34,725 bases of DNA, from IMG/VR virus record IMGVR_UViG_3300024262_000123, positions 1-34,725 of that record; one strand, written 5' to 3'. Within the stretch, counting starts at the first letter, position 1. Each line of letters begins with the position of its first letter. The notes below the pieces were generated by a model. That model searched no databases, had not been told where the DNA came from, and saw only the letters and a program-made list of their open reading frames with translations. This document shows positions 5,277-34,079 of the stretch, one piece after another. This DNA comes from a virus. The position numbers and the translations under genes are program-made.

Positions 5277-5518
5277 TGGTATAGTCCTATAATTAACATT
5301 ATGTAAAGTAAATTTTGAGCTTGATTTGAGCTTGATTTGAGCTTGAGCTGAGGCCGGACCTCGAGCTTGAATTGATTGATTAATTTTTTTGGAGCAACCA
5401 CGCAAAGGCAGGGGTGGGGGGTCGCCGGATTTCTTTCTTAAATATATATCCCGGTAGCCCTGTCCTAAATGCTACGCATGAAGCTTTTTCAGAGAAAAGT
5501 CTTGAAAGGAGGTAAATC
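5277..5518. repeat. Non-coding candidate packaging site (pac/cos) with 11-bp iterons
   Basis: No gene is seen in these 242 bases. Three head-to-tail copies of TTGAGCTTGAT lie at 5315-5346, with a degenerate fourth at 5362-5372. An imperfect hairpin AGCTGAGG-ccgga-CCTCGAGCT spans about 5344-5367. A GC-rich patch, CAGGGGTGGGGGGTCGCCGG, at 5409-5428 stands out in the AT-rich background. Iterated sites beside a small terminase gene are typical of TerS-binding pac sites, and GC-rich patches with GTCG are common at cos sites. The last 50 bases hold the leader of the next gene. Confidence 0.5.
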
Positions 5519-6908: not shown

Positions 6909-8300
6909 ATGTCCATAGAATTTGATTTCCAGGAAGAACGTGAGCGCATCACCTTTACAGAAAAACAACTTGTTGCCCTGAGGATACTTAATAAAAAGGG
7001 TGTCCGAGGTCTATTATTTGGCGGGGCAAAGGGCGGAGGAAAATCAGTACTCTTATGCCGGTATGCCTGGCTATATTGCAAGTCGATCATTAAATATTTT
7101 AATATACCGGTTTTAAGAAGTCCTATACCATTGGGATTTTTAGGGAGACTTCAGGGAGTTGATTTTGATGATACCACACTGGAGAGCTGGAAAGAATACA
7201 TACCGGAAGAAGATTATAAGATTAAAGAAAAAAATAAAGAAATTATCATTGAGAATAGAGTTAAAATTCAGTATGGTGGATTAGATAATAAAAAAGTGGT
7301 TAAAAAATTTAATAGTGCCAATTATGGTTTTTTCGGTCTGGATCAGGCCGAAGAAATTGAAGAAGATAAACTAACCGAGCTAAGATTGACCCTTAGAAGA
7401 AACATAGGTGGAATTCCTCTGCCATTTAAAGAACTCTATACCGCCAACCCAGCGGACTGCTGGCTGAAGGATGAATTTGTCTTAGGCCACAATAAGAGAT
7501 TTGTTTTTCTTCCTTCCTTGCCTTCAGATAATTCCTTCTTGCCTTCCGACTACGTCGAAAACATGGAATACACCCTGCGTAATAGACCGGAATTGTTAAA
7601 AGCTTATCGTGATGGTTCCTGGGATATATTGGCCGGGGCGGATATTGTAATACAGGATAGATGGATTGATAGGGCGAATGAAAACAAGTTTCATAAGCCG
7701 ATAAGAAGAGTTATTGTGTGTGATCCTGCAAAGTACGGAGACGATGAGACCGTTATCTATGGTATGGAAAATACCAAGATATTAAAACCACCCCGGATAT
7801 ACGGTAAAAAAGATGAGTATTACACCGCCAATGAAATGGAGAACATGGGTTTAGATTTTAAACCTTCACTTTATATAATCGATGGTATAGGAATAGGTAG
7901 CGGAGTAGCCTCCATATTAAGTAATAAGGGATTACCTGTTTTAGTTATAATGAGTTCAGAGAAGCAGGAATCCGGAGTTCCTAAACAATTTTTAAACCGG
8001 AGGTCACAGATATGGTGGTATGCCGGTCAGCAATTCGGTGATAATGAAGTGGAGTTACATCACAAAGATCAGGAATTAAAAAGACAGCTTACCGTTCCCC
8101 GATATACTTACAAAGGCGATAAATTTATGATCAGGTCAAGGGATGAGATTAAAAAAAGTTATGGCCGGTCTATTGATAGGGCAAGTGCTTATGTTATGGG
8201 AATTTGGGGACTGCAGTACGCAGAGGAAGAAGCACCGGAAGCTAGGCCGGAAGACTTTTTTACTGAGGAAGATTTGGGTGCTGGTTTTATGTCGGCGTAA
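6909..8300 (+). CDS. terL: Terminase large subunit (ATPase and nuclease)
   Basis: The 463-residue protein has the full motor layout. Walker A is GGAKGGGKS at residues 38-46, the Walker B-like region is FFGLDQAEEI (141-150), and a coupling motif TANP is at 178-181. The RNase H-like nuclease has D272 in VIVCDPAKYGDDE, D325 in LYIIDGIGIG and D423 in SIDRASAY. It pumps DNA into the procapsid at the portal and cuts the concatemer. It works with the small terminase and portal encoded nearby. Length is normal for the family. Only the strategy (cos or pac) is not decided by the sequence. Confidence 0.95.
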   Translation: MSIEFDFQEERERITFTEKQLVALRILNKKGVRGLLFGGAKGGGKSVLLCRYAWLYCKSIIKYFNIPVLRSPIPLGFLGRLQGVDFDDTTLESWKEYIPEEDYKIKEKNKEIIIENRVKIQYGGLDNKKVVKKFNSANYGFFGLDQAEEIEEDKLTELRLTLRRNIGGIPLPFKELYTANPADCWLKDEFVLGHNKRFVFLPSLPSDNSFLPSDYVENMEYTLRNRPELLKAYRDGSWDILAGADIVIQDRWIDRANENKFHKPIRRVIVCDPAKYGDDETVIYGMENTKILKPPRIYGKKDEYYTANEMENMGLDFKPSLYIIDGIGIGSGVASILSNKGLPVLVIMSSEKQESGVPKQFLNRRSQIWWYAGQQFGDNEVELHHKDQELKRQLTVPRYTYKGDKFMIRSRDEIKKSYGRSIDRASAYVMGIWGLQYAEEEAPEARPEDFFTEEDLGAGFMSA

Positions 8301-32272: not shown

Positions 32273-32301
32273 TTGACAATTGCCTTTTTTTGTGATAACA
32301 T
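32273..32301 (+). promoter_or_regulatory. Promoter of the leaderless HTH gene
   Basis: TTGACA (32273-32278), 17-base spacer with TTGCC and TTTTTTTGTGA, then TAACAT (32296-32301) with TGn before it. Only six T separate the -10 from ATG 32308, so the transcript should start at or next to the A of the start codon. Confidence 0.75.
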
Positions 32302-32307
32302 TTTTTT

Positions 32308-32529
32308 ATGAAAAATATCCAAGAAGTCAAAACTAATATTAATACCATAATTAAGTTAGTAAAAAATACAGATTTAAAATATAAAGATGTAGCTGAAACC
32401 TTAGATGTAGATATCGGAACTCTTTCCCGGTGGGTACAGGGGAAACATATACCTACTAGGGTTTATCATAAAAAAATCGCTGAGATTGCGAACTTTTACA
32501 AAAAGATGAAAATAGATAAAACATTATAG
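32308..32529 (+). CDS. HTH transcription regulator, repressor-like, 73 aa
   Basis: Residues 25-47 form a canonical helix-turn-helix (YKDVAETLDVDIGTLSRWVQ, then GKHIP), as in XRE/Cro-type proteins. Flanking helices are basic. It is only the DNA-binding domain, without a C-terminal oligomerisation or cleavage domain. The message appears leaderless, as for lambda cI from PRM. It sits between late genes and a new rightward operon, the usual place of a lysis-lysogeny switch. Whether it is repressor or Cro-like cannot be told. Confidence 0.75.
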   Translation: MKNIQEVKTNINTIIKLVKNTDLKYKDVAETLDVDIGTLSRWVQGKHIPTRVYHKKIAEIANFYKKMKIDKTL

Positions 32530-32557
32530 GACGTTCGGTAATCTTTAATTTTTAAGT

Positions 32558-32635
32558 GTTTTTAGGTATTACTTTACATAAGATATAATATAGGCGGTTG
32601 CCTATGACATAAAATTATGTAAAAACCCTAAAAAC
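32558..32635. repeat. Large compound inverted repeat (candidate operator, ori or att)
   Basis: Nested arms: GTTTTTAGG (32558-32566) with CCTAAAAAC (32627-32635), TTTACATAA (32573-32581) with TTATGTAAA (32615-32623), and ATAGGC-ggtt-GCCTAT (32590-32605) at the centre. TATAAT (32584-32589) lies between the second and third arms. The three pairs share one axis within a few bases. Possible roles are a regulator-binding site, a replication origin, a recombination site, or the fold of a small RNA ended by the next terminator. Confidence 0.6.
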
Positions 32636-32653
32636 GAATAGAAATTATTCAAA

Positions 32654-32693
32654 AGATCGGACGTCACTATGATGTGATGCCCGGTCTTTTTTT
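32654..32693 (+). terminator. Intrinsic terminator after the inverted repeat
   Basis: AGATCGG and CGTCAC pair with GTGATG and CCGGTCT (two wobble pairs) around TATGAT, then TTTTTTT. It would end transcripts coming from the HTH gene or from the TATAAT in the inverted repeat, just before the ribosome site of 32715. Confidence 0.85.
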
Positions 32694-32714: not shown

Positions 32715-33215
32715 TTGAAAAGTGAATTTGGTAAAGGTTTAGTAGTCAATTTAGTTAAGTTTGGTGAGCATTATTCTAATGATATGTGGGGAAGGATTAG
32801 ACATATTATCTTTTATCAATCTAAAACAAAAGAAGAAAGGGATTTAATAATATCTGACAATCCACCACCCGAACAAAATTATGGATATGAATTGAAAAAT
32901 GATATTAAACTTTTTCTTAAATGTGAATACAAGATATATGGCAATTTTGAACAAGGAATATCACATCTGATTACACTTTGGGCTAATGGAGCAACAGACC
33001 ATTTATATGAGATTGAAGCTCCAAAAGGAAAAGAATGGAATAAAATCAGGAAATTAGTAGAAGAATTGAAAGATAAAGGTTTGTCTATGGGGCATGGATT
33101 TACAAATAAAATATATGTCTATGATGATGTTTTGGAGTTATGGGATTTAACTAAAAAAATATGTATTCTGATTGATAAAAAAATAGGTTTAAAACCCGAT
33201 TGGGGAAATTTTTAA
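32715..33215 (+). CDS. Hypothetical protein, 166 aa, TTG start
   Basis: AAGGAGGTGAAAAAT precedes the TTG at 32715; an earlier in-frame TTG lies in the terminator. The protein is compact alpha/beta with many aromatic and His residues (VKFGEHYSNDMWGRIRHIIF, LITLWANGATDHLYEIEAPK). It could be an enzyme-like or binding domain, but I do not recognise it. It begins the right-hand rightward operon and shares TAATG with the next gene. Confidence 0.65.
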   Translation: MKSEFGKGLVVNLVKFGEHYSNDMWGRIRHIIFYQSKTKEERDLIISDNPPPEQNYGYELKNDIKLFLKCEYKIYGNFEQGISHLITLWANGATDHLYEIEAPKGKEWNKIRKLVEELKDKGLSMGHGFTNKIYVYDDVLELWDLTKKICILIDKKIGLKPDWGNF

Positions 33216-33463: not shown

Positions 33464-33652
33464 ATTGCCTGCCTTGTGGCCGAAAAGCCTGAACAGTTTA
33501 ACAGGTGTGGTTACGGTACGCCCTACAGCACTACTGTCAGGGCAGGTAATTTTAGAGGTTCGGCGGTTTTTTACGCGGACCCGAGATTTGTTAATGTCAG
33601 GCCTTCGCAAGGTTGGGTTAAGGTTTTTGCCAAGACTTTGGATCTTAATTAA
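33464..33652 (+). pseudogene. In-frame continuation after the TAA: broken or separate gene piece
   Basis: Codons 33464-33649 continue the same frame and read IACLVAEKPEQFNRCGYGTP, then FRGSAVFYADPRFVNVRPSQ and KVFAKTLDLN. The GC-rich base use resembles the last part of the preceding gene and not the AT-rich surroundings. A GTG at 33476 could start a short protein but has no ribosome site. I take it as one gene split by a nonsense codon, possibly acquired by transfer; readthrough is an alternative. Confidence 0.45.
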
Positions 33653-33677
33653 AGGACCTAAACGGAGGCTTGATTAA

Positions 33678-34079
33678 ATGGAGGTAATGATGTCAAGTAG
33701 GTCAAAAGAAATTGAAAAATGTCCTAATGTTAACTGTGCAGCCCCTGTATGTCCACTGGATCCTATGAAAGAAATTTGTATCTGGTTTCCGAATGAAGAA
33801 GTCTGCAGAAAAAATTTTCCTCCGCAATGGGTCAAGAACCAAAAAAAGATACAAAAAAAGGATGGGAATCCCGATAATTATTACACTTTTCGGATGCTTT
33901 CACAAAACTGCCAAATCAGAAAGGGGATAATCGGAATCATTCCTGAGGGTATAGGTTATACCTCCGTAAAAACAAGAGAAAAAATTTGGCTAAAAGGACA
34001 TCCTATTAAGAGAATCTTGAGCGAAAAAGAAAAAGAAGTCTTAAGAGAAAGATTTAAGAAGAATATCCGAAGGAAATAG
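33678..34079 (+). CDS. Cysteine-cluster protein, 133 aa
   Basis: ACGGAGGCTTGATTAA precedes the ATG. The first 45 residues contain six cysteines (CPNVNCAAPVCPLDPMKEIC, then VC) able to bind zinc or an iron-sulphur cluster. The rest is basic and helical, ending in a K/R-rich tail. The combination suggests a nucleic-acid-binding or small redox protein. No family name is justified. Confidence 0.6.
   Translation: MEVMMSSRSKEIEKCPNVNCAAPVCPLDPMKEICIWFPNEEVCRKNFPPQWVKNQKKIQKKDGNPDNYYTFRMLSQNCQIRKGIIGIIPEGIGYTSVKTREKIWLKGHPIKRILSEKEKEVLRERFKKNIRRK

Follow-up and report, generated by a model that had tools for sequence, protein, structure and literature searches.

The window analysed here is the whole of a 34,725-nucleotide stretch of viral DNA (positions 1 to 34,725 of IMG/VR record IMGVR_UViG_3300024262_000123). 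A gene for a small repressor-like protein is followed in it by a block (32546-32690) made of a long imperfect palindrome and then a strong intrinsic terminator, and beyond the block by the early genes. The features of this region are the following (plus strand unless stated).

32308..32529, + strand: HTH protein, repressor/Cro-like, 73 aa, directly on the XerD side of the proposed attP; a 73% identical homologue lies beside attP in the relative G003
32530..32547, + strand: antiterminator-like segment just 3' of the HTH stop codon, complementary to the 5' arm of the terminator (fold of the truncated transcript)
32546..32647, no strand assigned: imperfect palindrome, four nested arm pairs around the proposed attP, z about -6 (RNA) and -5.2 (DNA)
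32546-32554 / 32639-32647: fourth, outermost arm pair, TAATTTTTA
32558-32566 / 32627-32635: next arm pair inward, GTTTTTAGG / CCTAAAAAC
32573-32581 / 32615-32623: middle arm pair, TTTACATAA / TTATGTAAA
32590-32595 / 32600-32605: inner arm pair, ATAGGC / GCCTAT
32571..32598, + strand: dif-like XerCD site of 28 bp, proposed attP
32571-32581, + strand: its XerD arm, ACTTTACATAA
32582-32587, + strand: its core, GATATA
32588-32598, + strand: its degenerate XerC arm, ATATAGGCGGT
32615..32623, - strand: second, inverted XerD-like half site, TTTACATAA on the minus strand; counterpart CTTTACATCA in G003
32651..32690, + strand: intrinsic terminator, stem and T run, between attP and the early-side gene; homologous terminators in relatives
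32715..33215, + strand: first gene beyond the XerC arm, with a probable TTG start after AAGGAGGTG; distant homologue in L121

The original prediction had described three nested inverted repeats sharing one axis, with TATAAT between the arms and a strong terminator behind them. The three arm pairs are indeed there, and a fourth lies outside them; their centre is near 32597, and the axes agree to within about 1.5 nt rather than exactly. TATAAT is present at 32584-32589, and the terminator folds far better than its shuffles (z -7.0). Against dinucleotide shuffles the whole block reaches a z of -7.6 and the palindrome alone -6.1, none of 500 shuffles being as good; folded as DNA, the palindrome still has a z of -5.2. 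Upstream, a promoter-like TTGACA-17-TAACAT at 32273-32308 ends 6 nt before the HTH start codon, a position that suggests a leaderless repressor mRNA.

The original prediction overlooked that the left half of the palindrome contains a recombination site of the dif type. Relatives were collected in IMG/VR with the terminase and the endolysin as baits; the HTH protein and the 165-aa downstream protein, used as baits in the same way, brought up no relatives, and no direct DNA relative of the window was found among deposited phages. When the relatives are compared, conservation is confined to about 35 bases in the left half of the block, with the consensus ACTTTACATAAGATATATTATAGGACGT, and the conserved segment has the 11 + 6 + 11 layout of a dif site. 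The arm pattern occurs, at three mismatches or fewer, in 13 of the 24 related viral records (control: 0). The reverse complement of the consensus, with a GATATA core, agrees at 24 of 28 positions with the dif of B. subtilis.

To what chromosome such a site belongs can be read from the GTDB genome collection. Searched for the two arms around a core of any sequence, it gave 70 loci in many phyla, one copy per genome, as is to be expected of a chromosomal dif. In Atribacterota, ACTTTACATAAGATATATTATAGGACGT is found as exactly one copy in 12 of 50 genomes (three mismatches or fewer), the core GATATA being invariant, and a reversed-pattern control had zero matches in the same 50 genomes. In several of them dif adjoins one and the same gene. 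The GATATA core is also present in a few other phyla. The window site matches this dif at 25 of 28 positions: the XerD arm (11/11) and the core (6/6), 17 positions together, are identical, and the degeneracy is confined to the XerC arm, with three mismatches (8/11). A match to dif with at most three mismatches would be expected by chance in the window about 1.1e-6 times. In addition, the XerD-arm variant ACTATACATAA of phage L023 is that of three host genomes. From the sequence of the site, the host of the window phage is likely to be an uncultured Atribacterota of the deep sediment.

Atribacterota have the enzymes as well. Their XerD scores above the NCBIfam cut-off and is encoded beside a purine nucleoside phosphorylase gene, and an XerC-type partner is encoded beside topA; one of two XerC-type proteins scores just below the NCBIfam XerC cut-off. 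Near the host dif loci (L151-L156), a TTCTCCGAACACC-like motif recurs about 40 bp from dif, on the XerC side, in several Atribacterota, and a similar motif, GTGTTCGGGG, flanks attP in phages.

A search for a host-junction match had been proposed, and the match was found in relatives of the window. In L024 the 83 bp from dif to the contig end are 96% identical to an Atribacterota dif with its right flank (E about 1e-35); in L122 the first 107-118 bp or so are 85% identical to an Atribacterota left flank with dif (E about 1e-30); and at the contig end of L017, 97 bp are 90% identical to another Atribacterota dif with its left flank (E 1e-32). Each of these junctions has Atribacterota chromosome on one side of dif and phage on the other. 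The record of L024 is a tailed phage, with terminase (terL), portal, major capsid, neck and tail genes, as is that of L122, with a tape measure and other tail genes. The three records belong to other tailed-phage lineages than the window, with which they have in common the site and, in L024 and L017, a lysis module. For the portal/terminase lineage of the window itself no junction was found, and its terminase is unmatched in the 50 Atribacterota genomes. More generally, 6 of 11 records have the site no more than 120 bp from a contig end (p about 1e-10), which is expected if assemblies break at the integration point. An unbroken arrangement is seen in G003, a record of 45,712 bp (about 45.6 kb) whose 127-bp identical ends mark it as a complete genome, either circular or terminally redundant. 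Its terminase, portal and HTH protein are 84%, 79% and 73% identical to those of the window, and its site, placed as in the window between the HTH repressor-like gene and the early genes, is flanked by phage genes left and right.

The att function, which the original prediction had listed among its options beside a small RNA and a compound operator, is strongly supported by the dif-like XerCD site in the block and by the relatives that are joined to the host chromosome at dif. We consider it very probable that 32571-32598 is the attP of an integrase-less temperate tailed phage, a mimic of the host dif that is used by the XerCD of the host. An IMEX integrates at the host dif through catalysis by XerC and XerD, and is further recognised by the lack of an integrase of its own, by a dif-like site with both arms and a host-compatible core, and by a host with XerC and XerD. 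Junctions at dif come here from the related tailed phages L024, L122 and L017. Tyrosine and serine recombinases of Pfam (PF00589, PF00239) are absent from the window, which is a fragment, and from the complete relative G003; 32571-32598 is a site of the kind described, and Atribacterota encode both proteins. No tRNA that could be an att target is present in the window.

Host XerC and XerD, which we infer to perform the recombination for the window phage, would bind to both attP and the chromosomal dif, bringing the two into synapsis; strand exchange across the identical GATATA core would then insert the circular phage at dif. The product on the repressor side would be an intact dif, made of the phage XerD arm and the host XerC arm. 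In the L024 junction, ACTTTACATAAGATATATTATAGGACGT is followed by host DNA, that is, a perfect dif is found on that side. On the early-gene side, the host XerD arm and the degenerate XerC arm of the phage would form a weakened site. Under such an asymmetry, the intact dif would keep dimer resolution working after insertion, while the weak second site would hinder casual excision. The terminator would stay with the early genes and insulate them against transcription from outside.

Other readings of the site have to be weighed against attP. The phage might use it as a Xer multimer-resolution site (cer/psi-like) for a circular genome, without integration, the lysogen being plasmid-like. Xer-type sites are apparently retained in such phages for purposes besides joining dif: a second one, near terL, has a non-host core (TGTTAA) and is kept in relatives, and the complete relative G003 would suit a circular state. 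However, a resolution site has no need of the host core, to which that of attP is identical, and it is at this site that related phages pass into host DNA, so that we regard pure resolution as very unlikely. The recombinase could also be the phage's own rather than host XerCD. Small tyrosine recombinases of 197-200 aa are encoded in the relatives G004, G008, G076 and G078, one of them about 1 kb from its dif-like site, and a phage enzyme could act at dif-like sites in some of these phages. Yet neither the window nor G003 has such an enzyme, in G008 it lies some 13 kb from the site, and the arms of the site are the Xer arms of the host; we give this explanation very little credence for the window. 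The palindrome brings to mind the attP(+) of CTXphi, in which two inverted dif-like sites form a hairpin (PMC3089051), and here the recombining site could arise in a folded single strand or cruciform by pairing between the XerD arm and the second, inverted arm; in the fold, the core is largely unpaired and the XerC-side stem is paired. Against such folding, the double-stranded form of the site makes a good dif by itself, its core having the canonical 6 bp where that of CTXphi is longer. Genomes of tailed phages are also dsDNA, and the second arm, limited to the window and G003, is absent from L022 and L023; we hold this version to be highly improbable. An attP(+) of the CTXphi type with two complete inverted dif-like sites was rejected, the second arm being a XerD-like half site only.

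Two readings concern RNA. A small RNA of the kind first proposed, started inside the block, could draw on the TATAAT at 32584 and on the terminator at 32651-32690. But no promoter-like site was found within the block, TATAAT overlaps both the conserved Xer core and the XerC arm and is not kept in relatives, and no Rfam family matches the block at gathering score, all of which leaves this option extremely unlikely. Under relaxed Rfam settings, L20_leader alone came up, as a chance match (E 0.79; 19.7 bits, the cut-off being 58.7). The block may in addition work as RNA in another way, compatible with attP: the segment after the HTH stop codon would act as an antiterminator against the terminator and control read-through into the early operon. 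In a 3'-truncated transcript, 32530-32547 pairs with the 5' arm of the terminator, and the complementarity recurs, with differing sequence, in G003, L013, L022 and L023. The complete transcript, however, favours the terminator as the more stable fold in both the window and G003, the comparison comprises only five sequences, and the att function would be left intact by such a switch, which we hold to be doubtful. If it existed, its two halves would come apart on integration at attP, and the antiterminator would be possible in the circular phage only. An attP embedded in a transcriptional switch, in which XerCD integration parts the pairing segments and expression of the early operon senses the integration state, is a model that we find rather improbable. 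We infer a possible role for the extra palindrome, with its inverted second XerD-like arm and its antiterminator-like pairing with the terminator.

The second Xer-type site mentioned above lies far from attP.

5282..5309, - strand: second Xer-type site, ACTTTACATAA / TGTTAA / TTATAGGACTA, between the TerS-like gene and terL

It occupies the same place in L002, L005, L006 and L009, with varied cores, and is degenerate in G003. Since its core is mismatched and incompatible with the host dif, it may serve multimer resolution. Beside it, at 5313-5350, are direct repeats of about 12 bp (GAGCTTGATTT), with a similar arrangement in relatives; the site and the repeats together possibly function in multimer resolution or packaging. 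Other dif-like arrays were noticed in viral contigs: in L121 (76 kb), several dif-like TTTACATAA motifs are clustered next to the site at positions 1-250, and L115 (3300001336_000016, 40 kb) has two directly repeated dif-like sites, at 7337 and 7401, 64 bp apart. The tyrosine recombinases of 197-200 aa in L027, L028, L172 and L173 consist of the catalytic part only.

On the early side, a structured RNA is predicted at 33598-33670 (+ strand; CAGGCCUUCGCAAGGUU...ACUUUGG...AAGGACCUAAACGGAGGCUUG), just upstream of the ORF at 33678. A further 7 related viral contigs contain it, 14 of the 30 predicted pairs being changed on both sides, and it has no match in Rfam; it is a candidate for a new phage RNA family. 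The region 33.4-33.65 kb was also considered as the variable repeat of a DGR, which was unsupported, part of it being this conserved structured RNA leader.

Known systems close to this one include the IMEX of the VGJphi type, filamentous vibriophages that insert as dsDNA at dif via host XerCD (PMC5357621). VGJphi shares with the window a single dif-like attP in double-stranded DNA, the lack of its own integrase and insertion at the host dif, but the window belongs to a tailed dsDNA phage of about 45 kb; the VGJphi core differs near XerD, whereas the window core is fully identical to that of the host dif and the XerC arm is degenerate. A degenerate arm in a dif mimic is also known from the GGI of Neisseria and from TLCphi, where it leads to one intact dif and one weakened site (PMC5357621). 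There it is the XerD arm that diverges, in contrast to the XerC arm here, and element type and host differ. With the attP(+) of CTXphi the window shares inverted dif-like arms that can fold into a hairpin around the core, but the window phage has no ssDNA genome, and its second arm is incomplete and not general in relatives. The tailless dsDNA phages Jorvik and NO16, with a dif-like attP, and the dif-integrating gokushoviruses are also proposed users of host XerCD; unlike the window phage they are not Caudoviricetes, and their hosts are proteobacterial. Tailed plasmid prophages such as Bacillus phage B83 are, like the window phage, tailed and tied to Xer biology, but they encode Xer recombinases and stay plasmids, whereas no such enzyme was found in the window, whose site matches the host dif.

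In the open literature we found no precedent for a tailed phage that integrates at dif through host enzymes, although one may exist in subscription journals. Candidate tailed-phage precedents in papers proved to use ordinary integrases. Hijacking of host XerCD and dif has so far been described, in that literature, mainly for filamentous, micro- and tailless phages and for genomic islands, not for tailed phages. A group of tailed, apparently integrase-less phages in an uncultured phylum would widen the XerCD/dif strategy. The dif-mimic attP connects these phages with Atribacterota, and accounts for the non-temperate label that tools based on integrases would give them. Through the matching cores, other temperate phages without an integrase could be recognised by a simple computation, namely a search for a mimic of the host dif.
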